From contig JAPOPC010000091.1 in NCBI GenBank assembly GCA_026713105.1, positions 1 to 62,667 of the forward strand: DNA of 62,667 nucleotides, in the 5' to 3' direction. Origin of the DNA: Acidimicrobiaceae bacterium (GTDB lineage Bacteria > Actinomycetota > Acidimicrobiia > Acidimicrobiales > Poriferisodalaceae). A program made the translations under genes and the position numbers. Under the pieces are notes generated by a model. It had not been told where the DNA came from. It made no database searches and was given only the letters and a program-made list of their open reading frames with translations. This document shows positions 5,306 to 50,892 of the stretch, piece by piece (the stretch's first letter is position 1; every line of letters begins with the position of its first letter).

Positions 5306-5404
5306 TCAACTCTTAAGCACGGTCCGCAGCGACACGATCGTTGCGAACGCCGGAGAGGCGCCACCTCTCGGCACAGCAGTCGAGCGTTGGACGCTGGCCC
5401 TCAT
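5306..5404 (-). pseudogene. Truncated 5' end of a CWB2 gene (like the gene at 1-1522)
   Basis: A 32-codon frame downstream of the 5433-8684 gene starts MRAS and continues ASPAFATIVSL before diverging to a stop. It aligns with the start of the 1-1522 gene (TRASASPMFAAIVSV). The upstream DNA, up to the end of the preceding protease gene, is also near-identical in both places. A 12-codon insertion and loss of everything after the signal-peptide core suggest the leftover of a deleted CWB2/hydrolase gene copy. Confidence 0.55.
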
Positions 5405-5432
5405 CACTCGTGTGGGCACAGCTGGCGGCGGG

Positions 5433-8400
5433 TCACGTGTTGCGGGTGATCGTGACGGTGTGGGTGTCGCCGGCGTCGCCGGTGACCGTGATGGTGACGC
5501 CGCGAACCGTGACTGACTCGCCTTCCTGGAGTACAGGGAAGCCATCGATTTGGCCGTTACCGCTGTCGCCGGCGATGCGCATGGGCAGTTGGCCGGTGCC
5601 GATGAGCGTGTCCACGGTGTAGACGAGCACGCCTTCTTCGATCAACGCCGGACGTCGTCCCGCGTCGCCGCGCGGCCAGGTGAACTGAGGACCGCGGTCG
5701 TAGCCGATCTTGCGACGGCTCTCGACGACGATGACCTCGTGGCCATTGAGAGGCACCGCGGCCACGGCCACGTTGCCGCCCGTCCGCGCGACCGGGGCAA
5801 GCGCCACGGTGGCGTCATCGCCGGTGATGCATTCGGCTTGGCGAGGATTGAGCCAGCCGAGCTGCCACCGGCTCCACGCCAGCATCTCGACAGGTCGCAA
5901 GCGATCGACCCCCCGCCACCACCAGGCACCGTCGGGATAGGTCCTGGTCACACGGCGCAGCATCAGCGAAGCGTCAGCCAAGAAATAGGCCCCGATCCCC
6001 ATCAGACCGAAGCGGATGGGGATCCACTCCTGATCATCGGGTGCTTCGGGCCGTTCGTGGGCGCTGTTGTCGTAGGGATACATGTCCAAAAGGCCCAGAT
6101 TGTGCATCAGCTCGTGCGCAGCCGTGCGGCCCCAGTCCCGGAGATCGCCCGGCTCCTCGCGAGGAATGTTGTTGTTGACGTGTCTGCGCAGCGAAACACC
6201 GTTCGACTCGATCGTCCCGCCCGCATGGCCGCCAAAGAAATGGGTACTGGGAAGAATTACGGCGAGGCTGTGGAATCCGTCGAAATCGAAGTCGTCAGTG
6301 AGCTGAAGCACATCTGCAAAGAAGGCATCGCCGATGACCCACTGATGGCCGATCGCAGACTCGCTCAGGTAGTCCTGGTAGCTGTTGGGTGCTCGTAGCC
6401 ATTCGTGGTGCGGCACGTATTCGATGTCGAGTTTTCTGTAGCTGTTGCGTTCGAGGTATTCCTCCGCCCACGGCAGCCCCCGCGCAACTTCCGCCTCTGT
6501 GCTGTGGTCGGCTTGGGCGTCGGGGAAGTCCACGAACAACACCGCCACCCGGACGGTTCCCCTGGTCGGCACCCAATCGGGCAGCGGGAACCCCGCAGTT
6601 GTGCGATTGAGTAGTCCGCGTGGCTTGCAGACTGCTGCGGCGGTGAGCACTTCGGTGCCTGCCGAGCCGGCCACTGCGGCGTAGCGGGTGCCGCTGTAGT
6701 CGAGCTGGTCACCGGTCTGGTCGTAGTGGGTGAATGCGATGCGCTGCCCGTCAGGCGACCACCTCGGCGTCATTGCCCAGCCGCCGAGGTCGCTGACTTG
6801 ATGCTCAGCGATCCCGTCGACCTCGACCGTGACTATGTCGGTCCCCGACGTCTCGTCGCCGGCGGCGAACGCCAGCTTGGTGCCGTCGGGTGACCATGAC
6901 ACGCCTCCATTCCAGAAGGCACCTGCAGCGACGGGCCACTCGTCGCCGCCATCGGCTGAGACCGCCCAGACACTGTTGGCTGCGATGTATGCGATGGACT
7001 CCCCGTCCGGAGACCACGCCGGCCGCCTGTCCCAGTGCCCGCCAGCTGTTAACGGCGTGAGGCTGCTGCCGTCGGCGTTCGTTACGGCGAGATAGAGGTC
7101 TGCGTCGATGGGGTGGCCGTCGTCGTCCCGGCCGTCGCCAGCATGACGCGAGAATACGATTCGGGACCCGTCAGGCGACCACGCCGGGGTCCGGTCCCGG
7201 ACATCGCCGTCGGTGAGCTGCACCGGATCGGCACCGTCGGATTCCGCGACCCAGACGTGGCGCACCCAGTGACCAGCATCATTGTTGAGGCCGCTCGTGT
7301 ACGCGATACGGGTCCCGTCCGGCGACCACGCCGGCTCACTGAGGAACGCCCCGTCGTGGGGGACGATGACGCGCGCGTCGGTGCCGTCAGAGCGAGCGGT
7401 CCGCAGCGAACCCCATTGGCTGTAGGCGATGTGGTTGCAGTCAGGCGACCATGCGGGGTCCTGCGACCTCGGGTCGTCGACCAGCCGCGACGGCGGGTCC
7501 GACGCCGAACCGCCGCACGACCCCGCCGCCAACACCCCCGGCTCCCCATCGTCAGGCTCGGCCTCGCCTGATTCGTCCCGGGCGGAATCCTCGCCAGCGA
7601 GGTAGGAGTCGATGGCTGCTTGGGATATGGCTACATCGCCGCCGAACACTCGTAGGTCGACGGTGGTATTCGCTTTTCGCGCCTCATCGAGGTATGTGGC
7701 GGTGTCGGCGGGGGTGTTGTCGGGGGCGGCGAGCAGCAGCGGGGCGCACAGCCGTCCCAGTAGGGGTGCCGCGCTGAAGGAGTCGAACGGCACGCGGGCG
7801 CGGGCGACGCCGATCGTGTCACTGGCGAAACACGTCTTGCCGGCCGCGGCGCTGTATTGACCAGCGGCGAGGTTGGCTGCTTTCGCGGCGGTGTCGTAGC
7901 GAGTGCTGCCGGCGACCCGGGAGATCTTGATGCCGAGATCTTCGATGGACTGTTCGACGGCTTGGCTGAGAGCTGCGGTGCCGCCCATCAGCACGACGTG
8001 ATCGATGGCCGCGTCGCCCAGATAGCCGGCCACGTCGGGATGCAGTTCATCGGGCGGGCTCAGCAGCACCGGATGGACCCCTCGGGCAGCGATCGGGCCT
8101 GCCACCAGTGCGTCGGCGAACACTTCCCCGTTGGCGATCACCGCGGTGCGGCCCAGCTCGCCCATCACGTCCGGCGTGACTCGCCCTGCGGCCGCTACCG
8201 CAGTGCCGTACCGGTCACCGCCCGCGATGCGATCAGTGCTGATGCCGGCCTCGCCGAGCGCTTCGAGCACCCCAGCATCCACACCGCGTCCAGGGCCGTG
8301 CGCGCCGCCGCTCGCGTCGGGGCCGACCACCAGCGCCTTGGACACACCCACCCGCCCCAGAAACTCCAGCGCGTCGGCCCGCAGCTCATCGGGCGGGGTC

Positions 8401-34752: not shown

Positions 34753-35649
34753 ATGACCCTCGCCGATGTTGCCCCGCCCACCAGCGATCCCATCTCGGAC
34801 AGCCAGCGTGCCGACTACGAGGCGAACGGTTACCTGTGCTTGCCGAACTTCGTCGGACCGGATTGGCTCGACGAGCTTCGCAGCGTGACCGCAGAGTTCA
34901 TCGAGGCCAGCCGCTCGCAGACCGCCTCGGGCAAGGTGTTCGACCTTGAGCCCACCCACACGCCGGAGGCTCCCCGGCTCAGGCGACTCATCTCACCGGT
35001 CGACCAGCACCCGAGCTATGCACGGTTCACCTTCGAAGGTCCGCCGGCGCAGCTCGCCTCGGCCTTGCTCGGCGGGCCGGTGCGCTACCACCACTCCAAG
35101 CTGAACTTCAAGTGGTCTGGCGGCGGCGAGGAAGTGAAATGGCACCAGGACATCCAGTTCTGGCCCCATACCGACTTCACGCCGCTCACCATCGGCGTCT
35201 ACCTCGAAGACGTCGACGGCGAGATGTCCCCGATGGGCGTGCTGCCCGGCAGCCACCGCGGCCCGCTGTACGACCAGTACGCACCTGATGGGAACTGGGC
35301 GGGTTCCATGGCTGACGCCGATGTCGCGACGCTTGACCTCGACCAGATGGTGTACCTGGGTGGACCGGCGGGCTCGGTCACCGTCCACAACTGCTGCATG
35401 ATCCACGGATCGCTGCCGAACAACTCGCCGCGGCCCCGGCCCCTGCTGCTGCAGACCTATTCGGCCATCGGCTCCTACCCGATCAGTCACGTCGGCGCGA
35501 ACGGCGTCCTCGGCTCGAGCGGGGGCCGCCTCTGTGGCGGCGAGGCCTCCCAGATGCTCACCATCGACGGCCGCCGGATGCGCGGCGCGCCTGACTGGTC
35601 GCGCAAGGGCCCGCCCACGATCTTCGGCTCCCAGCAGAAGGACGGCTGA
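34753..35649 (+). CDS. Phytanoyl-CoA dioxygenase family (PhyH) protein
   Basis: A 298-residue Fe(II)/2-oxoglutarate-dependent oxygenase. The facial triad is visible as HQD (H131, D133 in KWHQDIQFWPH) and a distal histidine in IHGSLPNNS (H218). The 2-oxoglutarate-binding arginine lies in PRPRPLLLQTYS. The middle contains the usual GVLPGSHRGPLY. Family members hydroxylate acyl-CoAs, amino acids, ectoine or phosphonates, so the substrate is open. It starts at ATG 34753 with a TACGGT -10 seven bases upstream. A phosphotransferase-fold gene follows 45 nt later and may be functionally paired. Confidence 0.88.
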   Translation: MTLADVAPPTSDPISDSQRADYEANGYLCLPNFVGPDWLDELRSVTAEFIEASRSQTASGKVFDLEPTHTPEAPRLRRLISPVDQHPSYARFTFEGPPAQLASALLGGPVRYHHSKLNFKWSGGGEEVKWHQDIQFWPHTDFTPLTIGVYLEDVDGEMSPMGVLPGSHRGPLYDQYAPDGNWAGSMADADVATLDLDQMVYLGGPAGSVTVHNCCMIHGSLPNNSPRPRPLLLQTYSAIGSYPISHVGANGVLGSSGGRLCGGEASQMLTIDGRRMRGAPDWSRKGPPTIFGSQQKDG

Positions 35650-35694: not shown

Positions 35695-37275
35695 GTGAGC
35701 AGCGAGCTTTCGCACCCCGTGCCGCAGTTCTTCGACGCGCTCGATGCTGCAGTGCGCCGCGAGATCGCTGATTGCGCCGGATTGGTGGACGCCGAGCGAC
35801 TGAGCGGTGGCGCCAGCATGGAGAGCTACCGGCTGCGCTGCCGAAGCGCTGCTGAGCCCGCAGCGACATTCGACATCTGCCTGCGTCGGGGACCTGACGG
35901 AGAGGACCGCGAAGGAGACAACGTCACCGGCGTGGCCGCCGAGGCGCTCTGCATGAGCACGGCCCGCTCTGGCGGGGTTCCCGAGCCCCAAGTCCTCTAC
36001 GTGCTGCAGCCCTCCGACGGCGTCGGAGCGGGCTTTCTGATGGAGTGGATGGACGGCGTCACGCTCGGGGCTCGCATCGCCCGGCTGCCCGAACTGGAGC
36101 AGGCGCGCAAGAAGCTCGCATTCCAGTGCGGGCAGGAGATGGCCCGCATCCACAGCGTCGACGTCAACGCAACGGGGTTGGCCGCAGTGCTGCGCCGATT
36201 CGAACCGGCTGACTACCTCGCTGAGACCTGGGATCGATGCAAGGAGATGCCCACCCCGCAGCCGATGATCGATTACGCCGCCCGCTGGCTAGCCGAGCAG
36301 CTCTCAGGACGCGGATCGGTGGAGCTGACGCTGGTGCACAACGACTTTCGCAACGGCAACATCATGGTGGACCCCGTCGAAGGCCTCGTCGCCGTGCTCG
36401 ACTGGGAAACCGCGCATATCGGCGACCCGATGCGTGACTTGGGCTGGATGTGCACCAACTCGTGGCGCTTCGGCCAGCGTCACCTGCCCGTCGGCGGCTT
36501 CGGTCACTACGAGGACCTGTTCGCCGGCTACCAAGACGTTGCGGGCACACCCGTCGACCGAGATCGCGTGCAGTACTGGGAGGTGTTCGGCTCGTTCTGG
36601 TGGGCGGTCGGGTGCCTGGGCATGGCCGATCGCTACCGGACGGGTTCCGACGCCACCGTGGAACGGCCGGGAATCGGCCGCCGCAGCTCGGAGTGCCAGC
36701 TCGACTGTGTGAACCTGATCATTCCCGGACCGGTCGAATTCCAGCCGGCGGTCGCAGAACTCGGCCTGCTCGAACCCGATTTCGGCCGTCGACCGCGCGA
36801 GCTGTCACCGCTCGGCGGCAGCCTCACCAGCGCTCTGGCCCATGCCGCAGCCGGCGATATGCCCCGCGTCGACGAGCTGCTCGAGAGCGTGCGCGACTTC
36901 TTGCACGGCGAGGTCCGCCAGGCCACCGAAGGTCGCACGAACTTCCTGGCGCTGGTAGCCGGCAATTCCATCGACATCGCCCTGCGGGAACGCCTCATCG
37001 GCCCCCAACTGCATCGATACGAGCTGCAGCGACTGACTGCGCTGGTCGGCGACAGCGCTGCGAACAGTAGCGACCGCCCCGCTGGGGACGCCGCGGTCGC
37101 CGAGCAGGTCACCACCCTGCGCTGGCGCCTCGTTCACGCCCTGCGCGACGGCTCGATGCCACTCAACGCGCCGGGTCTTGCGGACTACCTGCGCACCTCA
37201 GTCGCTCACCAGGTGGCGATCGACCAGCCCAAATACTCAGCATTCCGCCACATCGCCAGCCAGCATCTGAGCTAG
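35695..37275 (+). CDS. Aminoglycoside-phosphotransferase-fold protein with DUF6285-like C-terminus
   Basis: A 526-residue protein. Residues 1-340 are an APH/choline-kinase-fold domain with the catalytic loop HNDFRNGN (215-222, Asp217 as base) and the metal DWE motif (236-238), close to the ACAD10/11-type kinases that phosphorylate 4-hydroxyacyl-CoAs. Residues about 350-526 are a helical domain (DELLESVRDFLHGEV, GRTNFLALVAGNSIDIALRE) that matches DUF6285. In many actinobacteria this domain is a separate protein beside such kinases. Start GTG 35695. The pairing with PhyH suggests degradation of hydroxylated or branched acids (inference). Confidence 0.85.
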   Translation: MSSELSHPVPQFFDALDAAVRREIADCAGLVDAERLSGGASMESYRLRCRSAAEPAATFDICLRRGPDGEDREGDNVTGVAAEALCMSTARSGGVPEPQVLYVLQPSDGVGAGFLMEWMDGVTLGARIARLPELEQARKKLAFQCGQEMARIHSVDVNATGLAAVLRRFEPADYLAETWDRCKEMPTPQPMIDYAARWLAEQLSGRGSVELTLVHNDFRNGNIMVDPVEGLVAVLDWETAHIGDPMRDLGWMCTNSWRFGQRHLPVGGFGHYEDLFAGYQDVAGTPVDRDRVQYWEVFGSFWWAVGCLGMADRYRTGSDATVERPGIGRRSSECQLDCVNLIIPGPVEFQPAVAELGLLEPDFGRRPRELSPLGGSLTSALAHAAAGDMPRVDELLESVRDFLHGEVRQATEGRTNFLALVAGNSIDIALRERLIGPQLHRYELQRLTALVGDSAANSSDRPAGDAAVAEQVTTLRWRLVHALRDGSMPLNAPGLADYLRTSVAHQVAIDQPKYSAFRHIASQHLS

Positions 37276-37816: not shown

Positions 37817-39001
37817 TCAGGAAGCGCGGATCACGACGCCAGCCTCGCTGACTCTGCCAGACGCGACGTTGCGCTCGAATGCCTCAGCGGCCTCGGGCGT
37901 GCCGACCGGGTAGAAGCAGCGATAGAGGTGGGCGCCCGCTGGCGCGCCGCCGTCGTTGTCGTCGTCGTCCAGGTCGTCGTCCCGCCACGTCCCACGTCGC
38001 CTGGCGCCCCCGTCGTTGGAGTCGGCCGCTGCCGGCGCCTCGATCAAGGCCGGCTCCTCGGCGACGCACAGTTCCTGGGCGTACTTGCAGCGAGGGGCGA
38101 ACTTGCATCCCGTCGGCAAGTCGGTCATCCGTGGCGGCTGGCCGCCGATGATCTCCAAGCGGGCATGGCTGTCGTCGGTGACCTTGGGGATCGACCGGAA
38201 CAACGCCTCGGTGTAGGGCATCCGCATGTTGCCGAAGAGCGTCGCTGTCGGTGCGCGTTCCACGATCCGGCCCGCGTACATGACAATGACCTCGTCGGTG
38301 CGACCCGCTACAACTCCCAAGTCGTGGGTGATGAGCACCAGCGACATATCGCGCTCGGCACGCTGGGTCTCGAGCAGGTCGAGTATCTGCGCCTGGACCG
38401 TCACGTCGAGGGCGGTTGTGGGTTCGTCGGCGATAAGCAGACGCGGACTGCACGCCAGCGCGATCGCGATCACGATGCGCTGGCGCATGCCGCCCGAGAG
38501 CTGGTGCGGGTACTCGTCGATTCGCCGGTGCGGCTCAGGGATGCCGACCTCCTCGAGCAGGTCGAGCGCAGCGGCACGAGCGGCCCTAGCTGACAGGTCC
38601 CGGTGCACGCGCAAGCCCTCGCCCACCTGCTTGCCGATCTTCATGACCGGGTTCAGCGAGCCCAGCGGATCCTGAAACACCATCGCGAGCTGCGGGCCCC
38701 ACATGTCGAGCAGCTCGCGGCGGCCCAGCGACATCATGTCGATCCCGTCGAAGAGGACCGATCCCGTCGAAGTCACCCTCGACTTGGGCAGCAGCCGCAT
38801 GATGGACCGCGACATCACCGACTTGCCCGAGCCGGACTCTCCCACCACGCCCAGCCGAGCGCCCGGCCGCAGGGACCAATCGACCCCGTCCACGGCAACC
38901 AGCGGCCCGACCGCGGTATGGAAGGTGGTCCGCAGGTCGGCGACGTCGAGCAACGGCTGCTCGTCAGCCCCCGCAAAGCCCGTCATCGAGGTGTCGGTCA
39001 T
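37817..39001 (-). CDS. Oligopeptide/dipeptide ABC transporter ATPase (OppD-like)
   Basis: A 394-residue cytoplasmic ATPase. It has Walker A GESGSGKS, Q-loop VFQDPLGSLNP, signature LSGGMRQR, Walker B LLIADEPTTALD and the switch His in ITHDLG. The C-terminal oligopeptide-transporter extension (GCKFAPRCKYAQELC) shows the four-Cys [4Fe-4S]-type pattern of this family. That extension is interrupted by a very acidic linker (DDDLDDDDNDGG) of about 30 residues. ATG 39001 overlaps the stop of the companion ATPase (ATGA). Unlike its partner it has no membrane insertion. Confidence 0.92.
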   Translation of the reverse strand: MTDTSMTGFAGADEQPLLDVADLRTTFHTAVGPLVAVDGVDWSLRPGARLGVVGESGSGKSVMSRSIMRLLPKSRVTSTGSVLFDGIDMMSLGRRELLDMWGPQLAMVFQDPLGSLNPVMKIGKQVGEGLRVHRDLSARAARAAALDLLEEVGIPEPHRRIDEYPHQLSGGMRQRIVIAIALACSPRLLIADEPTTALDVTVQAQILDLLETQRAERDMSLVLITHDLGVVAGRTDEVIVMYAGRIVERAPTATLFGNMRMPYTEALFRSIPKVTDDSHARLEIIGGQPPRMTDLPTGCKFAPRCKYAQELCVAEEPALIEAPAAADSNDGGARRRGTWRDDDLDDDDNDGGAPAGAHLYRCFYPVGTPEAAEAFERNVASGRVSEAGVVIRAS

Positions 39002-40710
39002 GACGCACCTCTCCCAGCGGACGCGATCTCGACGCGTTCGGGTGCGGTTTCGCCGATCAGCGGTGTGTGACAGGCCACGAACCGCCCGGGTGCGATCTCT
39101 CGCATCTCGGGCTCCTCGTCTGCACAGCGCTGTGCAGCATGCGGGCAACGCGTGCGGAATCGGCAGCCCGAGGGCGGATCCATCGGCGAGGGCAGCTCGC
39201 CGTCGATGCGTCCCGACCCCAGCTCCGCCTCTGGATCGGGTTGCGGGATCGCCGCCAGCAGCATCTCCGTGTACGGATGAGCAGGCTCGTCGAACATCGC
39301 ATCGGGCTCGCTGACCTCGCAGAGCTTGCCCAGATACATGACCGCCACGCGGTCGCTCACGTTCTTGACGACCGCCAGGTCGTGCGCGATGAACACCAGC
39401 GTCAGGCCCATGAGGTTCTTGAGGTCTTCAAGCAGATTCAGTATCTGCGCCTGCACCGAGACGTCCAGCGACGACACCGGCTCGTCGCAGATGATCACCT
39501 GCGGCACGCTGACCAACGCCCGAGCGATGGAGAGCCGCTGCGCCTGACCGCCGGAAAACTCCCACGGCCGGCGGTCCATGGCGTCATCGGGGTTGATGCC
39601 GACGTATTCGAGCACCTCACGGACACGCGGCTCGGCCCGTTCACGCGCCGCATTGCGGTTCGCCCGGTAGCGCCGCAGCACCCAACGCAGCAGCAGCGTG
39701 TCGACCACGATCGAGACCACCAGCACGATCAGCTTCACACCCGCGTCGAGACCCGCGACGTAGAAGACCTGCAGCACCACCATGGCACTGAGGGTGGTCG
39801 CGACCCCGCTGGCGCCCGCCCGTTCGGGATTCGCGATCGACGCTGCGAGCCACACGACGAGCACCGCGGTGAGCAGGCCTAGCCCACCGGAGTTCACCCA
39901 TTTGGCCCAGCCTCCGAAGCTCGACCAGGTTCGCCACAGCATGAAGCCGCTGGCGCCGGTGGTGACCACGACGCCTGCGATGCCGACAGGCGCGGACACC
40001 TCGCCGAACTGTCGCGACATCAAGCTGAAGGGCAACATCAGCGCGAGCAGCACCCAGGTCAAGCCCAGAACGAGGCCGACGGCCGCGACTGCCAGTGCGA
40101 TCGCGAGCGCCGGGAACCCGATGATGGCCGCGGGAACCTCCGTCCAGCCCAGCCACGGCTCCGCGGCACGTTCCTCGACGGCCTCAGAGAGGATCCAGAG
40201 CGCGAAGGCAACCGAGGCCGCGAGGCCCACGATCCGCATCGGTATCGCCAATCGCTCCAACAGTGTTTGCAGCAACCCGCCGATGCGCTCCTGCCACGTC
40301 GCCATCGCTGTTCGCCGTGTCACGTTCTCCAGGGCGATGAACAGCGGTTCGGCAATGATGTCGCGTACCCGGCGCCGTGGATTCAGCGACGAGATCGGAT
40401 CCTGGTAGATCATCTGCAGTCGCGGCCGCACCTCGCGCATGGCGTCGGGGTCGAGCTCGGTCAGCTCCTGGCCGGCGACCTGCACCGAGCCCGACGTCGG
40501 CGATGGGAGCTGCAGGATCGCCCGCCCCGTCGTGCTCTTGCCGCAGCCTGACTCGCCGACGAGACCGAGCGTCTCGCCCTCCATCAGATCGAGCGACACC
40601 CCTGACACGGCGTACACCTTCCGGCCGCCCGCCGCCGGGAACTCCACGACCAAATCCTGCGCCCTCAGCAGAGCGTCCGACCGCAGATGGGCGTTGCCGC
40701 TGCCCGCCAT
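38998..40710 (-). CDS. OppF-like ABC ATPase with a membrane domain inserted in its nucleotide-binding domain
   Basis: A 570-residue protein instead of about 330. It starts as a normal OppF: Walker A GESGCGKST (52-60), Q-loop YQDPISSLNPRRRVRDIIAEP (102-122). Then, from about 128 to 355, comes a polytopic membrane region with about seven hydrophobic helices, for example RIVGLAASVAFALWIL, FPALAIALAVAAVGLVLG, GLLTAVLVVWLAASIA and LIVLVVSIVVDTLLLRWVL. The ATPase then resumes with RVREVLEYVGINP, signature FSGGQAQR (385-392), Walker B VIICDEP, the switch histidine and the Cys-containing C-terminus (CRFRTRCPHAAQRC). All catalytic motifs are intact and the frame is unbroken. The insertion lies where the helical subdomain meets the permeases. 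ATG 40710 was chosen over an upstream GTG-less extension. Confidence 0.88.
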   Translation of the reverse strand: MAGSGNAHLRSDALLRAQDLVVEFPAAGGRKVYAVSGVSLDLMEGETLGLVGESGCGKSTTGRAILQLPSPTSGSVQVAGQELTELDPDAMREVRPRLQMIYQDPISSLNPRRRVRDIIAEPLFIALENVTRRTAMATWQERIGGLLQTLLERLAIPMRIVGLAASVAFALWILSEAVEERAAEPWLGWTEVPAAIIGFPALAIALAVAAVGLVLGLTWVLLALMLPFSLMSRQFGEVSAPVGIAGVVVTTGASGFMLWRTWSSFGGWAKWVNSGGLGLLTAVLVVWLAASIANPERAGASGVATTLSAMVVLQVFYVAGLDAGVKLIVLVVSIVVDTLLLRWVLRRYRANRNAARERAEPRVREVLEYVGINPDDAMDRRPWEFSGGQAQRLSIARALVSVPQVIICDEPVSSLDVSVQAQILNLLEDLKNLMGLTLVFIAHDLAVVKNVSDRVAVMYLGKLCEVSEPDAMFDEPAHPYTEMLLAAIPQPDPEAELGSGRIDGELPSPMDPPSGCRFRTRCPHAAQRCADEEPEMREIAPGRFVACHTPLIGETAPERVEIASAGRGAS

Positions 40711-40717
40711 TACAGAC

Positions 40718-40815
40718 CACCCCTCACGACGCAGCCCTCGCAGCCCAGCCCTCACAGCCCAGCCCTCGCAGCACAGCCCTCACGACGCAGCCCTCACAGC
40801 ACAGCCTCCCGAGGC
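40718..40815. repeat. Seven ~14-bp tandem repeats at the oppC/oppF junction
   Basis: Units of the type CAGCCCTCACAGCA start at 40718, 40732, 40746, 40760, 40774, 40788 and 40802. They fill the gap between the permease stop and the ATPase start and extend into the permease's last codons. The repeats occupy the place where a ribosome-binding site for the ATPase would be expected. Confidence 0.75.
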
Positions 40816-41624
40816 TCGAAGTACTGCTGCAGGCGGTCGCCCACGAAGTTGAGCGCCAGCACCGTGACGAACATGACGATGGCCGGCATCAGGCTGATGT
40901 GCGCGGCGACATCGAGGTTGGTTCGCCCCTTGTTGATCATGTCGCCCCATGTGGGCGTAGGCGGAGGCACGCTGAGACCCAGAAACGCGACCGCGCCCTC
41001 CACGACGATGAGGCCGGCCATGATGATCAGTGAATAGCTGACCAGCGAGGGGGCGACGTTCGGCAGCACCTCGCGAAACAGCACGCGGCCGTCACGCGCC
41101 CCCAGCGTTCGCGCAGCGAGCACGTAGTCCTGGTTGGCGCACGACAGCGTGGCGGCGCGCACCACACGGGCGATGGGCGCGATCGACAGCAGCACGAAGG
41201 TGAACACCAGGATGAAGATGCGCCGCTTGGCCTCGGAGTCCAAGAACAGCACCAGCGCCAGGAACAGGATCAGCGGCGGGATCACCAGCGATGCATTCAG
41301 CGTGGCAGTGAGCCACCGATCCACACGGCCGCTGTAGTAGCCCGAGACCATGCCCAGCAAACCGCCGATCACCAGCGCCAGCACGGTTCCCACGGTCGAG
41401 ATCACCAGGCTCACCTGCGCGCCGTAAATCACTCGGCTGAACACGTCCCGGCCCACACCGTCGTTCCCGAACCAGTGCGACAAGCTGGGTCCCTGCTTGG
41501 ACGTGCCGGCGAACGTATCCGCTGGGTCCTTGATGGGCAGCACGTCGGCGAACACCGCAGCGACGGCGAGCACCGCAAGGTAGGCCACCGCCAGCCAGAA
41601 GAAGAACCCCAGGCGCCTACCCAC
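40794..41624 (-). CDS. Oligopeptide ABC transporter permease (OppC-like)
   Basis: A 276-residue inner-membrane permease with about six helices. The N-terminal helix is GFFFWLAVAYLAVLAVAAVFA. Then come HWFGNDGVGRDVFSRVIYGAQVSL (typical of DppC/OppC) and the EAA coupling loop as ARTLGARDGRVLFREVLPN. The end shows PTPTWGDMINKG. Start GTG 41624 overlaps the OppB stop by 8 nt. It pairs with the OppB-like protein to form the translocation channel; the substrate is probably a peptide or similar organic compound. The 3' end runs into a 14-bp tandem repeat. Confidence 0.9.
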   Translation of the reverse strand: MGRRLGFFFWLAVAYLAVLAVAAVFADVLPIKDPADTFAGTSKQGPSLSHWFGNDGVGRDVFSRVIYGAQVSLVISTVGTVLALVIGGLLGMVSGYYSGRVDRWLTATLNASLVIPPLILFLALVLFLDSEAKRRIFILVFTFVLLSIAPIARVVRAATLSCANQDYVLAARTLGARDGRVLFREVLPNVAPSLVSYSLIIMAGLIVVEGAVAFLGLSVPPPTPTWGDMINKGRTNLDVAAHISLMPAIVMFVTVLALNFVGDRLQQYFEPREAVL

Positions 41625-42756
41625 GGGCGCCGATCTCCCTGCCGCGCAGTCGCGGATCCAGTGCCAGATACAGGAAGTCGGACATCGTGAGCACCACGAT
41701 GTACAGCGTCGAGATGACCAGCACACCGCCCTGAACAGCGATGAAATCGCGTTGGGTGACGCCGAGGAAGATGTATGCGCCCACGCCCGGGATCGTGAAG
41801 ATGAATTCGACGATCAGCGCGCCGCCGATAAGCAGGCCCACGGTCAGCCCCACCACGGTCAGCAGCGTGAAACTCGACGGCCGCAGCGCGTGGCGCCACA
41901 GGATCCGCCGAGTCGGCAGTCCCTTGCTGCGAGCCAGATCGATGAACGGCAGACGCAAGGTGGCGATCATGTCCGATCGCAACAAGCGCATGAACACGGC
42001 CGCTTGACCCATCGCCAACGCCAGCGACGGCAGCAGCATGTGCTTGAAGTGCAGCACCACGTCCTCGCCCAAGGGCACATAGCGCGCGGCTGGAAGCACG
42101 CGGAATCCGATCTCATTGCCCGCCACGCTGAGCCCGCCGATCGACAGGAAGAGCACGAGCATGACGGCGAGGACGAAATTGGGGGTGGCCAAGAATCCCA
42201 GCATCGCGTTGTTGATGGTGGCGTCGGTCTTGCTGCCCTGCCGGTAGCCGGCCCAGATTCCGAGCGGGATCGCAAAGGCCAACGCCAGCACCACCGAGTA
42301 CGCCATGATCTGCAGCGTCGGGGTCATCGAGCGCGAGATGCCGTCGGCAATGTCCTCGCGCAGCACGATCGAGCTTCCGAGATCGCCCGTGAGCACGCCG
42401 CCCAGCCAGTTGCCGTAGCGGTTGAAGAACGGCTCGTCGAGTCCGAGTTCGGTGCGGACGATCGCAATCTGGTCCGCGGTGGCGGCGGGTCCGAGAATGT
42501 TGATGGCGGGATCGCCAGGCAGGCTGGCCATCAACGCAAATACGACGAACGACACGCCGACCAGCACCGGGATCACGCTCGCGATACGACGCAACGCGTA
42601 GCGCCCGTCGGCGATGGCTGCCCCCGCGGTGCCGACGACCACCAGCACGCCGAACGTCCAGCTGAACGGGGGCCGCCAGAACCACGCCCACGCGACCGTG
42701 GCGGCGAGCGCTACCCCAACGATGCGCCCGAGCTGATCGCGGACCGCCTGTTTCAT
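41617..42756 (-). CDS. Oligopeptide ABC transporter permease (OppB-like) with extra N-terminal helices
   Basis: A 379-residue permease. From residue 53 it follows DppB/OppB: RRIASVIPVLVGVSFVVFALM, LPGDPA, GLDEPFFNRYGNWLGG, DLGSSI, the EAA-loop ARSKGLPTRRILWRHALRP and GALIVEFIFTIPGVG. Residues 1-52 add two more hydrophobic stretches (VGVALAATVAWAWFW and FGVLVVVGTAGAAIA) not usual for the family. ATG 42756. It is in an operon: binding proteins upstream, OppC-like permease overlapping downstream, then two ATPases. Confidence 0.9.
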   Translation of the reverse strand: MKQAVRDQLGRIVGVALAATVAWAWFWRPPFSWTFGVLVVVGTAGAAIADGRYALRRIASVIPVLVGVSFVVFALMASLPGDPAINILGPAATADQIAIVRTELGLDEPFFNRYGNWLGGVLTGDLGSSIVLREDIADGISRSMTPTLQIMAYSVVLALAFAIPLGIWAGYRQGSKTDATINNAMLGFLATPNFVLAVMLVLFLSIGGLSVAGNEIGFRVLPAARYVPLGEDVVLHFKHMLLPSLALAMGQAAVFMRLLRSDMIATLRLPFIDLARSKGLPTRRILWRHALRPSSFTLLTVVGLTVGLLIGGALIVEFIFTIPGVGAYIFLGVTQRDFIAVQGGVLVISTLYIVVLTMSDFLYLALDPRLRGREIGARG

Positions 42757-42813: not shown

Positions 42814-44760
42814 TCAGCCTTGACAATCGCCGTCAGTGCACCAGATCTGCGCGACATGGTGCGCTCCCGCGTTCACAGCGAAAGCGCCGACGTCGCTGCC
42901 CGGGATCGGCAGGTCGGTGATGTTGCGCACCCACGGGTTGGCGATGACACCCCACAGCGTCCAGTGGGTCCACAGGTTCCAGACATTGCGGCCGAAGGCC
43001 CGGTTCACCTCTTCCGCCGCTTCACGGCGAGCCTCCGGGTCGGGATTGTGGCGAATGACGTCGTACGCAGCATCGATGGCAGGGTCGGTGAAACGCCCGA
43101 CGTTGAAGGCCAGCTCCGGCACCCTGGGATCGATGGGCAACGCGGTTGCCGAGTTCCACCACAGCCACAGCTCGATCGGATCCACCCCGCCATAAGCCCG
43201 CAAGGCCATCATCTCGAAGATGCCGGCCAGCGCCAGGCCGAAGTACTGGCCCTGCTCAATGGGCTGGATCGTCACCGCCAGCTCGTCGCCGAAGACATCG
43301 GTCCACATGGCCAAGACGAGTTCGTTGGACTCGACATTGAAGGGATCATTGGTGGTGTTGAAACCGAACGTCACCGGATTCTGGCCGCTGTCGGTCTTGC
43401 ACTGCTCGAAGGCCGCCGCGGCAGCCTCGGGGTCGTAGGTCGGGTAGCCCGAGTCTTCCAAGTAGCCCATGCTGCCGGGCGGGAATGGCCCGTTCGCCGG
43501 CCTCACCAGGCCTCCGAGGCGCTCCTCGACGAATCGCTCGCCGTCGAAGGCATGCGCCAATGCCTTACGGCAGCTCAGATGCACCAGCGGGTTGGACGCA
43601 TTGAGCCCCAGCGGGTCCATCTCGATCGGCTCGTCGAGGCCTCGAACCTCGCTCAGGACCGGATTCACCCCGGCCGCAACGTTCATGACGTTGAAGTTGG
43701 TCTCGCCGAAGTCGTTGGCCTGCAGCGTGACGAAGTCGGGGTCGCGCTCGTACTTGGCGATCTCATCAGCGTTCGACGTGTGCATGAGGTCGAATTGGCC
43801 CCCTCTCAACCCGTTGGAACGGCCCGTGATGTCGGCTGCCACGACGAATTCGATCTCGTCCAGGTACGGCAGGTTCTCGCCGGTGATGCCGTTGGGGCCA
43901 CGCCAGTAATCGGGATTGCGCTCTGCGATGAAGCTGTTGCCGTTGCCGGGCGTGTACTCCACGAACCTGAATGCCCCCAACCCCACCGGTGCCGACGGAT
44001 CGCCCGTGGCCGAGGCGAGACCCGCAGCCCGCTCATCGGCGCTCAGAGGCGAGAACGGCGAGGAGTACAGCGGGTTGTTGGGCAGTGTCTCCAGCCACGC
44101 CGGTGAGAACATGAAGCCGCAGCCGTTCTCCCTCGACGCGGGACCCGGCCCCGTCGCGAACGGGATGGACGTCTCGTAGTAGAGGTACTGGCCTTCGCCC
44201 CAGACGTCTTCGATGCCCAGGTAGCCGGGCCCGATCTGCTGGCTGAAGCGACACAGGTTGATGTTGTACGCCATCGCCTCGCCGGTCAGCGGGGTGCCGT
44301 CGTGGAACGTGATCCCGTCACGGACCTTCAGCGTCCACATCAAGAAGTCTTCGCTGGGAGTTTCGGACTCCACGAGATACGGCACGATGTCGCCTTTGGC
44401 ATCGGTGACATACATCGATTCGGTGATCGCCCGCATGATCATGCGGCAACTGATGGCGCAGAGCGCGGCGTAGGGCGCGAACGGGTTCGCCGTGTCGGCC
44501 TCGATGCCGTACACCAGCCGGCCGCCGTGGACAGGACCGGTCGAGTCGTCACGGACGTCCTCGCCCGTCGCCTCGCCGGCCTCGCGCGCGGCAACGATCT
44601 CTTCGGTCGCAGGGTCGTCAGGTGCCGCCGCGGTCCCAGCAGTGGATTCGACCCCGGCGTCGGCCCCGGGATCGCCCTCGACCGGGCTGTCGCTGCCAGC
44701 GCAGGCGACAGCAATCAGCGCGAACGCCGCGGCAACTGCTACCAGCCGCGCCCGTGCCAA
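42814..44760 (-). CDS. Family 5 extracellular solute-binding lipoprotein 1
   Basis: A 648-residue lipoprotein: short basic start, hydrophobic stretch and lipobox IAVAC for lipid anchoring. A Glu/Ala/Thr-rich linker precedes an SBP_bac_5 domain with GRLVYGIEADTANPF, WTLKVRDGITFHDGTPLTGE and NPDYWRGPNG. It captures peptides or related compounds outside the cell for the permease genes just downstream. Start TTG 44760 has GGGAGACGG upstream. It is a close paralogue of the next gene upstream, and the two are separated by 31 nt. Confidence 0.9.
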   Translation of the reverse strand: MARARLVAVAAAFALIAVACAGSDSPVEGDPGADAGVESTAGTAAAPDDPATEEIVAAREAGEATGEDVRDDSTGPVHGGRLVYGIEADTANPFAPYAALCAISCRMIMRAITESMYVTDAKGDIVPYLVESETPSEDFLMWTLKVRDGITFHDGTPLTGEAMAYNINLCRFSQQIGPGYLGIEDVWGEGQYLYYETSIPFATGPGPASRENGCGFMFSPAWLETLPNNPLYSSPFSPLSADERAAGLASATGDPSAPVGLGAFRFVEYTPGNGNSFIAERNPDYWRGPNGITGENLPYLDEIEFVVAADITGRSNGLRGGQFDLMHTSNADEIAKYERDPDFVTLQANDFGETNFNVMNVAAGVNPVLSEVRGLDEPIEMDPLGLNASNPLVHLSCRKALAHAFDGERFVEERLGGLVRPANGPFPPGSMGYLEDSGYPTYDPEAAAAAFEQCKTDSGQNPVTFGFNTTNDPFNVESNELVLAMWTDVFGDELAVTIQPIEQGQYFGLALAGIFEMMALRAYGGVDPIELWLWWNSATALPIDPRVPELAFNVGRFTDPAIDAAYDVIRHNPDPEARREAAEEVNRAFGRNVWNLWTHWTLWGVIANPWVRNITDLPIPGSDVGAFAVNAGAHHVAQIWCTDGDCQG

Positions 44761-44791
44761 TTGCCGTCTCCCGTGCCTTCAGTTGGTGTGC

Positions 44792-46825
44792 TCAGCCCTG
44801 GCAATTGCCGTCAGTGCACCAGATCTGTCCCAGATGGTGCTTGCCCGAGATCACCGGGAACGTGTTCTCGGCGTTGCCCGGAATCGGCAGGTCGGTGATG
44901 TTCTGCACCCGCGGGTTGGCGATGATGCCCCACAGCGTCCAATACGTCCACAGATTCCAGACGTTCGCGGCGAACGCCCGGTTGACCGCCTCGGCTGCGG
45001 CTTGCCGCGCCGCCGGGTCGGGGACGTGCCGGATGACGTTGAGCGCATCGAAGATTGCGGGGTCCAGGAATCGTCCGAAGTTCAGTGCCAACTCGGGCAC
45101 CGACGGGTCGACCGGGCTCGCGGTGAACGGACTCCACCAGTACCACTGCTCGGAGGGGTCCACACCGCCGTGGTTCCGCCAACCCTGCATCTGGAAGACG
45201 CCGACGAGCGCCAGGTTGATGTACTGGCCCTGCTCGATCGGTGCGATCGACACCGCCAGCTCGTCGCCGAAGGCGTCGCTCCACATGGACACGATCAGCT
45301 CGTTGGACTCCACGTTGAATGCGTCGTTGGTGGTGTTGAACGCAAAGGCCACCGGATTCTGGCCGCTGTCGGCCTTGCACTGCTCGAACTCTGCCTGTGC
45401 AGCGTCGAGGTCATAGGACGGATAGCCCGAGTCCTCCAGGTAGCCGATGCTGCCGGGCGGGAACGGACCGTTGGCCACCTTGACCAGGCCCTGGTGCCGC
45501 TCGTTGGCGAAGCGTTCGCCGTCGAAGGCGTGCGCGAGTGCCTTGCGGCAGCTCAGATGCACCAGCGGGTTGGTGGCGTTGAGCCCCAGCGGATCCATCG
45601 GAATCGGCTCTTCTGCGCCCCGCACGGCCTGCAGCCACGGGTTGACGCCAGATGCGACGTTGATGAGGTTGTGGCTGGTCTCGCCGAAGTTGTTCGCCTG
45701 CAGCGTCACAAAGTCGGTATCGCCCTCGTACTTGGAAATCTCGTCCGCGTTCGCAGTGTGGATGATGTCGAACTGGCCGGCCTTCAGACCGTTCGAGCGG
45801 CCCTGGATGTCCACGGCCACCACGAACTCGATCTCGTCCAGGTACGGCAGCTCCTCGCCGGTGATGCCGTTGGGGCCTCGCCAGTAGTCGGGGTTTCGCT
45901 CCGCGATGAAGCTGTTGCCGTTGCCGGGCGTGTAGCTCACGAACCTGAAGGCACCCAGCCCGACGGGAGCGGAAGGATCACCACTGGCGCTGGCCCGGGC
46001 GGCCTCCCTGGCTTCAGCAGGCAGGGGCGATGCCGGCGACACGTACAGCGGGTTGTTCGGCAGCGTCTCCAGCCAGGCCGGCGAGAACATCTGGCCGCAC
46101 GTTTCCGCACGTCCTCCAGGCCCTGGGCCGGGTGCCAGCGGCTGGCCTGGGCTGGCGGTGACCGTGACTGTCTGGCCCTCGCCGGTGACGTCGGCGATGC
46201 CGAGGAACGCTGGACCCGTGAGCTGGCTGAGGCGGCACAGGTTGATGTTGTAGGCCACGGCCTCGCCGGTCAGCGGCGTCCCATCGTGGAACGTGATGCC
46301 GTCGCGGATCTTCAGCGTCCACACCGAGTAGTCCTCGTTCGGAGCCTCGGACTCCACCAGGTACGGCACGATCTCGCCGTCGGAGTCGGTGATGTAGAGC
46401 GAATCAGTGACTGCCCGGAAGATCATTCGGCAGCTGATGGCGCATGACGAGGCGTAATGCACGAACGGGTTAGCGGTGTCGGCCTCGATGCCGTACACGA
46501 GCCTGCCGCCGTGGACGGGACCGGTCTCGGTCTCACGGACGTCTTCGCCGGTGGCTTCACCGGATTCGCGAGCTTCGACGACCTCCTCCTGCTCTTGGGA
46601 CACGGTGGTGGCAGGCGCCGATTCGCCTGCCTCGGTCGTTTCGGGCTCGGGTGCCACGCCCTCGCCGGTGTCACCGCCGTCATCTCCGCCACCACACGCA
46701 ACGGCGATGAGTGCAAACGCCGCGACCACCACGCCGAGCCGCCAGCGCAGCGGCCGTCGGGAACGGGAGCGTCGTGGCTCACTCGTACGTTCGTCGGCGT
46801 CGCGCCGCGATGTGCCTGTGTGCAT
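44792..46825 (-). CDS. Family 5 extracellular solute-binding lipoprotein 2
   Basis: A 677-residue paralogue of the neighbouring binding protein. The signal peptide is longer and arginine-rich (RRSRSRRPLRWRLG), followed by the lipobox LIAVAC. The domain shows the same landmarks: GRLVYGIEADTANPF, GITFHDGTPLTGEAVAYNIN, NPDYWRGPNGITGEELPY, and a C-terminal VWNLWTYWTLWGI. As the first gene of the ABC operon it probably sets expression level. Having two binding proteins for one permease suggests two ligand ranges (inference). ATG 46825; a slightly shorter start is possible because the first 25 residues are very polar. Confidence 0.9.
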   Translation of the reverse strand: MHTGTSRRDADERTSEPRRSRSRRPLRWRLGVVVAAFALIAVACGGGDDGGDTGEGVAPEPETTEAGESAPATTVSQEQEEVVEARESGEATGEDVRETETGPVHGGRLVYGIEADTANPFVHYASSCAISCRMIFRAVTDSLYITDSDGEIVPYLVESEAPNEDYSVWTLKIRDGITFHDGTPLTGEAVAYNINLCRLSQLTGPAFLGIADVTGEGQTVTVTASPGQPLAPGPGPGGRAETCGQMFSPAWLETLPNNPLYVSPASPLPAEAREAARASASGDPSAPVGLGAFRFVSYTPGNGNSFIAERNPDYWRGPNGITGEELPYLDEIEFVVAVDIQGRSNGLKAGQFDIIHTANADEISKYEGDTDFVTLQANNFGETSHNLINVASGVNPWLQAVRGAEEPIPMDPLGLNATNPLVHLSCRKALAHAFDGERFANERHQGLVKVANGPFPPGSIGYLEDSGYPSYDLDAAQAEFEQCKADSGQNPVAFAFNTTNDAFNVESNELIVSMWSDAFGDELAVSIAPIEQGQYINLALVGVFQMQGWRNHGGVDPSEQWYWWSPFTASPVDPSVPELALNFGRFLDPAIFDALNVIRHVPDPAARQAAAEAVNRAFAANVWNLWTYWTLWGIIANPRVQNITDLPIPGNAENTFPVISGKHHLGQIWCTDGNCQG

Positions 46826-49344: not shown

Positions 49345-50892
<1,548 letters not shown>

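Follow-up and report, generated by a model that had tools for sequence, protein, structure and literature searches.

The stretch of DNA analyzed here, hereafter called the window, comprises 62,667 nucleotides from an Acidimicrobiaceae bacterium (assembly GCA_026713105.1, contig JAPOPC010000091.1) and encodes a putative oligopeptide importer of the ATP-binding cassette (ABC) type. In the textbook picture, an ABC importer is a membrane permease powered by soluble ATPases, which dock on it from the cytoplasm through coupling helices. In the window, a run of genes assigned with Pfam and NCBIfam, all on the minus strand, encodes two family 5 binding proteins, the permeases OppB and OppC, an OppF-like ATPase interrupted by a predicted membrane domain, and OppD. 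The OppF-like gene (38998-40710) is a single open frame, which runs unbroken from the ATG at 40710 to the stop at 38998 and encodes 570 residues.

The full set of ABC ATPase motifs is present in this protein, and their positions bear out the claim of an earlier note on this DNA that all of the catalytic motifs are kept. The first half of the nucleotide-binding domain (NBD; residues 1-126, 40333-40710) contains the N-terminus MAGSGNAHLR, the Walker A motif GESGCGKS from residue 52, and the Q-loop YQDP from residue 102. The second half (39250-39636) contains the signature FSGGQ from residue 385, the Walker B motif IICDEP from residue 406, and the switch His443, within AHD from residue 442. Pfam assigns ABC_tran (104.8 bits) and, at residues 465-529, oligo_HPY (67.4 bits; 39124-39318), which includes the conserved Cys516, Cys522, and Cys529, the fourth Cys (547) lying beyond it. 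The nearest NCBIfam models are those of OppF/DppF, yet the protein scores below the curated cut-offs (OppF, 358.5 versus 540; DppF, 286.6 versus 660; PRK11308 subfamily, 335.3 versus 408). Among its homologs, listed as the best 120 of 7998 scored proteins with the window protein included, the MAGSGNAHLR-type N-terminus occurs in 113, and the four-Cys pattern, a putative cluster-binding site, in all 120; a 4Fe-4S role of these Cys residues is reported for E. coli DppD/DppF in excerpts of PMC12136057. Where the homologs are named, they are annotated as ordinary oligopeptide/dipeptide ABC transporter ATP-binding proteins.

The helical subdomain of the window OppF is not continuous, as it is broken by an insert of 232 residues (about residues 127-358; 39637-40332). 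The insert, delimited by homolog alignment, AlphaFold, and hydropathy, consists of stalk helices and six predicted transmembrane helices (TM1-TM6). The spacing from the QDP of the Q-loop to the SGGQ of the signature is 282 residues, in contrast to 57 in 11 insert-free sister OppFs, an excess of about 225; the normal OppF spacing is thus well above the roughly 20 residues that the earlier note had assumed. The polytopic domain of about 230 residues that it had placed between the Q-loop and the signature is conserved in 118 of the 120 listed homologs, with spacings of 281-299: 282 (97 proteins), 281 (11), 299 (6), 283 (2), 286 (1), and 292 (1). The other two are shorter proteins with the called start inside the insert. 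The records P0056, P0059, and P0122 hold proteins of 340-435 residues with starts called inside the insert, which are likely annotation errors. In the maltose-type ATPase MsmX, Arg104 in the helical-domain loop between helices 3 and 4 is discussed together with the permease interface (excerpts of PMC7658222); judging from its position in the sequence, the insert would fall in the same loop.

Over the other 117 full-length homologs, the mean identity to the window OppF is 61% in the insert, and 79% and 82% in the two NBD halves. The ratio of nonsynonymous to synonymous substitution rates (dN/dS), calculated against eight congeners, is 0.19-0.22 for the insert, 0.10-0.17 for the first NBD half, and 0.03-0.07 for the second; the loci L020-L022, which the pattern missed, were left out. 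The insert is under purifying selection. In ten aligned rows, the insert residues Ser49, Glu50, Arg55, Glu58, and Trp63, in the first outer loop and at its edges, are invariant, as are the charged insert residues Glu50, Arg55, Arg134, Asp196, and Lys200.

The insert has no significant match in Pfam or the PDB, and Foldseek finds no significant fold match to a transporter (best E 0.46). An intein was set aside, as the insert is hydrophobic and the general Pfam scans, which were not aimed at inteins, returned no intein family. No stand-alone relative of the insert was seen in a weak search, capped at 7999 scored candidates, which returned four proteins: P0059 and P0122, with starts called inside the insert; P0123, which covers the first NBD half and some of the insert; and P0121, which we read as a broken copy because its sequence starts within the insert and then departs from that of the family. 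A region search with P0110 found just three insert-bearing OppFs among 7996 candidates; it is insensitive, because more than 100 such OppFs exist. In a viral collection, none of the three stretches that fit a pattern encoded a relative.

AlphaFold models of the protein alone gave six long helices in the insert, both for the full-length OppF (79 sequences; mean predicted local distance difference test score, pLDDT, 78.8) and for the isolated insert (69 sequences; mean pLDDT 86.0). In the full model, the helices span residues 135-178, 184-234, 240-261, 268-293, 299-320, and 323-369. The first and last, of 44 and 47 residues, connect the NBD to the hydrophobic part, and according to the model enter the membrane from the NBD without a break. 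The insert is therefore predicted to cross the membrane six times, not seven; an even number is also required to keep both NBD halves in the cytoplasm. The earlier note was right that the domain is polytopic, but its count of about seven helices is replaced by six in the models, while hydropathy gives five to seven depending on the cut (7, 6, 6, and 5 peaks at cuts of 1.0, 1.2, 1.4, and 1.6). At the cut of 1.2, 56 of the 118 homologs show six peaks and 62 show seven. The two cytoplasmic stalks contain on average 4.0 and 4.7 Lys and Arg residues versus 1.1-1.3 in the outer loops, and outer loop 1 is acidic (mean Asp plus Glu, 3.2). The stalks and the acidic outer loop 1 thus follow the positive-inside trend, and the shorter loops are flat.

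Next, we examined how widely the layout occurs. A scan of named genome records with two short patterns, which finds close relatives, located it on 13 distinct contigs, with titles of Acidimicrobiia, Acidimicrobiales, Acidimicrobiaceae, Microthrixaceae, and uncultured actinobacterium. In the family, 12 of 39 genomes match, own included; 11 carry the insert in full, and the remaining one (G432) holds a piece at a contig end. Within the window's genus, 10 of 11 genomes match, own included, and in a second genus both do, one of them G432; nine of the genus genomes are the same as those of loci L011-L019. The sole miss in the window's genus, G418, has an extended OppB cut by the contig end. The six-helix insert was found in 11 of 397 genomes of the order, G432 among them, in one of 396 in a phylum sample, and, as a clear match, in one of 395 in a class sample, namely the window's own. 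Two weak class matches were dropped as chance hits: L026 reads as an FTR1-type permease, and L025 is a frame without a visible ABC motif. The window's genome has one insert-bearing OppF, and the NBD halves adjoin in its other listed Opp-type ATPase genes. The layout thus defines a small family in Acidimicrobiia, and the database check for insertions at the same place added shorter inserts in four relatives. The continuous frame that the earlier note had asserted, without misassembly, agrees with the repeats on the 13 contigs and in the 10 genus genomes.

The neighboring genes complete the importer. The OppB-like permease (379 residues; 41617-42756) has an N-terminal extension, recognized by ortholog comparison and hydropathy, of about 50 residues (residues 1 to about 50; 42607-42756), with two hydrophobic segments and the motif WAWFxRPPFSWTFG. 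The OppC-like permease (40794-41726) has an uncertain start codon, and six measured orthologs from insert operons each show six hydropathy peaks. The OppD-like ATPase (37817-39001) has no insert (spacing 58 in orthologs), and its ATG start overlaps the stop of OppF in the sequence ATGA. Upstream, the window encodes two SBP_bac_5 substrate-binding proteins (42814-44760 and 44792-46825), the second 71% identical to the first. The number of such tandem proteins (42814-46825) varies: two in the window, three in a row in L017, and one in L020 and in L021. In addition, the third and fourth Cys of the OppD C-terminal region are separated by a low-complexity stretch rich in Asp, WRDDDLDDDDNDGG, which the L020 ortholog lacks.

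The OppB extension accompanies the insert. It was found in all 13 six-helix operons (the window, as the reference, and L012-L023), in three of the four shorter-insert operons, and in none of 16 insert-free operons, five from the window's own genome (L077-L081) and 11 from other genera (L084, L086-L094, L096). Left out of this tally were L011, in which the contig ends near OppF and OppB was not read, L071, from the same record as L022, and L082, L083, L085, and L095, in which no OppF was found in the stretch. In the own-genome controls, a loose pattern gave some spacings that were too long or absent (264, 232, 419, none) in the stop-to-stop frames, and adjoining NBD halves were used there instead. 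Both hydrophobic segments are present in all 16 extended OppBs, with best 19-residue means of 1.43-2.72 and 1.63-2.72 (1.46 and 1.77 in the window). Of the 397 genomes sampled from the order, 12 matched a profile of the extension, namely G563, the OppF of which has a shorter insert on reading, and the 11 that carry the six-helix insert. No similarity of the extension to TM1-TM2 of OppF was seen (P 0.21). Permease subunits have six TM helices each in excerpts of PMC12136057, and by its sequence the OppB N-terminus departs from a six-helix permease that starts at TM1; the membrane passage of both extra segments is putative. In L023, the OppB (5328-6668) has more hydrophobic sequence upstream of the usual extension, in a frame of 447 residues with 70 before the match.

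The shorter inserts shed light on how the domain may have been assembled. The search of the order with the OppB extension led to G563, the OppF of which has 482 residues and a shorter insert with two hydrophobic helices. Two further genomes of its family, G586 and G1064, have the same form (3 of 39); the OppD and binding-protein genes of G1064 are on the opposite strand. A fourth case came from a class search with a profile that kept the ordinary NBD tail, so that 195 of 286 genomes matched: G002 was the sole full-profile match among the matches listed, and the rest were not counted. The nine other searched genomes of its genus gave no match. The G002 genome is a single contig of 4.78 Mb, in which a single chain combines the shorter-insert OppF with OppD (L117:7416-9839, an 824-residue open frame), and OppB lacks the extension. 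The Q-loop-to-signature spacings are 164, 175, and 175, and 167 in G002.

In BLAST, the shorter forms align with the window OppF up to residue 180 (L070), 235 (L075), 233 (L076), or 163 (L117), and the alignment resumes from residue 344-351. In profile comparisons with hhalign, the shorter insert matches the stalk plus TM1-TM2 (P 6e-6, probability 85%), but not TM3-TM6 (P 0.19), and TM1-TM2 do not match TM3-TM6 (P 0.53). By both methods, TM1-TM2 (about residues 157-226; 40033-40242) are the counterpart of the shorter insert in L070, L075, L076, and L117, and the TM3-TM6 block (about residues 241-347; 39670-39990) is absent from the shorter forms. The shorter insert is therefore likely a two-helix hairpin homologous to TM1-TM2 and the stalk, and the six-helix domain reads as this hairpin plus a four-helix block. 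The hairpin may have been acquired first and later enlarged by the four-helix block, an order that the trees do not settle. Trees were built on the NBD columns; the six-helix form was represented by 22 rows, of which 19 came from the 118 full-length proteins and three from loci, and P0120, which has a short N-terminus, was left out. The six-helix rows group together (support 85/87 and 86/86), as do the insert-free sisters (96/90 and 100/99). Support for the joins that connect the three states is weak, and the paralogs of the window's genome form very long branches.

How does this ATPase compare with known systems? In ABC exporters and other fused transporters, such as MsbA and P-glycoprotein, the membrane domain is attached at one end of the NBD and forms the pathway. 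The window OppF likewise has membrane helices and an NBD in one chain, but its block interrupts the helical subdomain, and the permeases OppB and OppC have genes of their own; it is thus not a fused half-transporter. A further comparison is provided by the insert-free sister OppFs of other genera in the same family, mentioned above, which share the N-terminus MAGxGxAHLR (stop-to-stop frames of 341-377 residues) and 63-70% identity over the second NBD half. They differ in the spacing, the unextended OppB, the gene order OppD-OppF-SBP-OppB-OppC, where SBP is the substrate-binding protein, and in a binding protein that is about 23-26% identical.

The M. tuberculosis OppABCD and DppABCD (8j5q, 8wd9) belong to the same Opp/Dpp ATPase lineage, but combine two NBDs in one chain, and excerpts of PMC12136057 report no inserted membrane domain in them. 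E. coli OppF/DppF (PDB 8z21, 8z1v; excerpts of PMC12136057) share the NBD fold (8z21_D is the best Foldseek match, E 1.4e-24), all of the motifs, and oligo_HPY with four Cys, and their operons likewise encode two permeases, OppD, and a family 5 binding protein. In contrast, the E. coli chains have 333-334 residues and no insert of this kind, whereas the window OppF has its 232-residue predicted membrane block in the helical subdomain, and the window OppB is extended. For E. coli DppBCDF, the same excerpts describe docking of the ATPases via coupling helices, a contact between DppC and DppF, and a rotation of about 20 degrees in the helical subdomain when the inward-facing state is compared with the outward-facing one. 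Such an ATPase was not found described in the open-access literature, subscription papers and preprints lying outside the search, in line with the earlier note, which knew of no standard ABC importer with this layout.

How would a membrane domain inside the ATPase work in the importer? The insert, its position, near-constant length, and conservation, the operon, the shorter-insert relatives, and the OppB extension are established at the level of sequence. With moderate confidence, we propose that OppF is an integral, dedicated membrane subunit of a likely oligopeptide importer, anchored beside the enlarged OppB, and that the anchor likely moves with the helical subdomain. The earlier note's picture of an ATPase anchored in the membrane by its own helical subdomain is in keeping with the modeled anatomy. 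The insert would interrupt this subdomain most likely in the loop between the third and fourth helices, and the stalk and the six-span bundle would make OppF an integral membrane subunit. The bundle would lie beside OppB and OppC and probably contact the extra OppB segments; situated ahead of TM1, the OppB extension could plausibly serve as its docking site. In this position, the bundle may keep OppF permanently on one permease. Because the entry and exit helices continue the helical subdomain, the bundle would move with its rotation (about 20 degrees in E. coli DppBCDF), and may stiffen or modulate the power stroke.

Several observations weigh against this proposal or parts of it. Hydropathy alone is not decisive for the six passes, as the window insert shows five peaks at the cut of 1.6, and outer loop 2 is no less positive than inner loop 1 (Lys plus Arg, 1.25 versus 1.19). 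In the window OppB, the first extra segment reaches only 1.46. The co-occurrence of the OppF insert and the OppB extension rests on few lineages, in which related sequences are not independent, and the profile tally of the extension is incomplete: it missed G586, which has an extended OppB on reading and which, from its number, seems to belong to the sample. G002 combines a shorter OppF insert with an unextended OppB, so that docking on the OppB extension is not required, at least for the shorter forms. The insert of G002 scores three peaks at the cut of 1.5, its long second stretch counting as two 19-residue peaks, and the stretch aligned by hhalign takes in the stalk, so that some of its score may come from there. 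Finally, a single origin of the insert has weak support (64/75; the p value of the approximately unbiased test is 0.44 with G002 added) and is neither shown nor rejected by these sequence trees; because of this weak support, the insert-free sisters may have lost it.

The main rival explanation is a sensor: in response to an ion, to lipids, or to tension in the membrane, the bundle would lock or release the helical subdomain and thereby switch the ATPase on or off. Added domains regulate other importers, as in OpuA and MetNI. The helices predicted to continue unbroken into the helical subdomain would suit a sensor, as would the invariant residues in the first outer loop and at its edges. However, the insert matches no known family, sensors included, and a sensor alone leaves the OppB extension unexplained; we consider this explanation unlikely. 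Less probable still is a neutral passenger tolerated by the NBD. The faster evolution of the insert than of the NBD and the existence of insert-free sisters would be expected of a passenger, but the near-constant length in 118 listed homologs, the dN/dS of about 0.2, the invariant residues, and the accompanying OppB extension are not. We give slightly less credence than this to the idea that the ATPase drives the bundle as an additional module for transport or lipid handling: a polytopic domain with invariant charged residues would suit it, while the shorter forms are unlikely to make a pathway of their own, and the Foldseek search yielded no significant transporter fold. An assembly chimera or misread frame, conceivable in a draft genome of 117 contigs, retains virtually no probability, because further copies refute it: the same layout lies on 13 distinct contigs of named records and occurs in full in 11 of the 39 family genomes, and the shorter form is found within the single contig of G002.

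Returning to the membrane-anchored subunit, we tentatively suggest a stronger version, which we regard as doubtful though worth stating. The bundle may be a third, moving membrane module: the rotation of the OppF subdomain would pass through the two unbroken helices to the six-helix bundle, which would work against the enlarged OppB, so that the motor would push inside the membrane as well as via the coupling helices. Such a module would have arisen in steps, starting from a soluble ATPase and with a two-helix hairpin as the intermediate. If OppF is indeed a natural, conserved membrane-spanning ATPase, then how far motor and permease can merge becomes testable, as do the rotation that the helical subdomain needs and what fixes an ATPase to one permease, by drawing on the insert-free, shorter, and six-helix states in relatives, together with the enlarged partner permease.

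Two other features of the window deserve mention. A pyruvate phosphate dikinase-like frame (49345-50892) covers only the C-terminal part of its family (profile positions 358-864 of 865). A tRNA synthetase occupies the next upstream frame, and the N-terminal half of the dikinase is therefore not adjacent. At 35695-37275, an APH-type kinase domain is fused to DUF6285, and the gene adjoins a PhyH dioxygenase-like gene (34753-35649).

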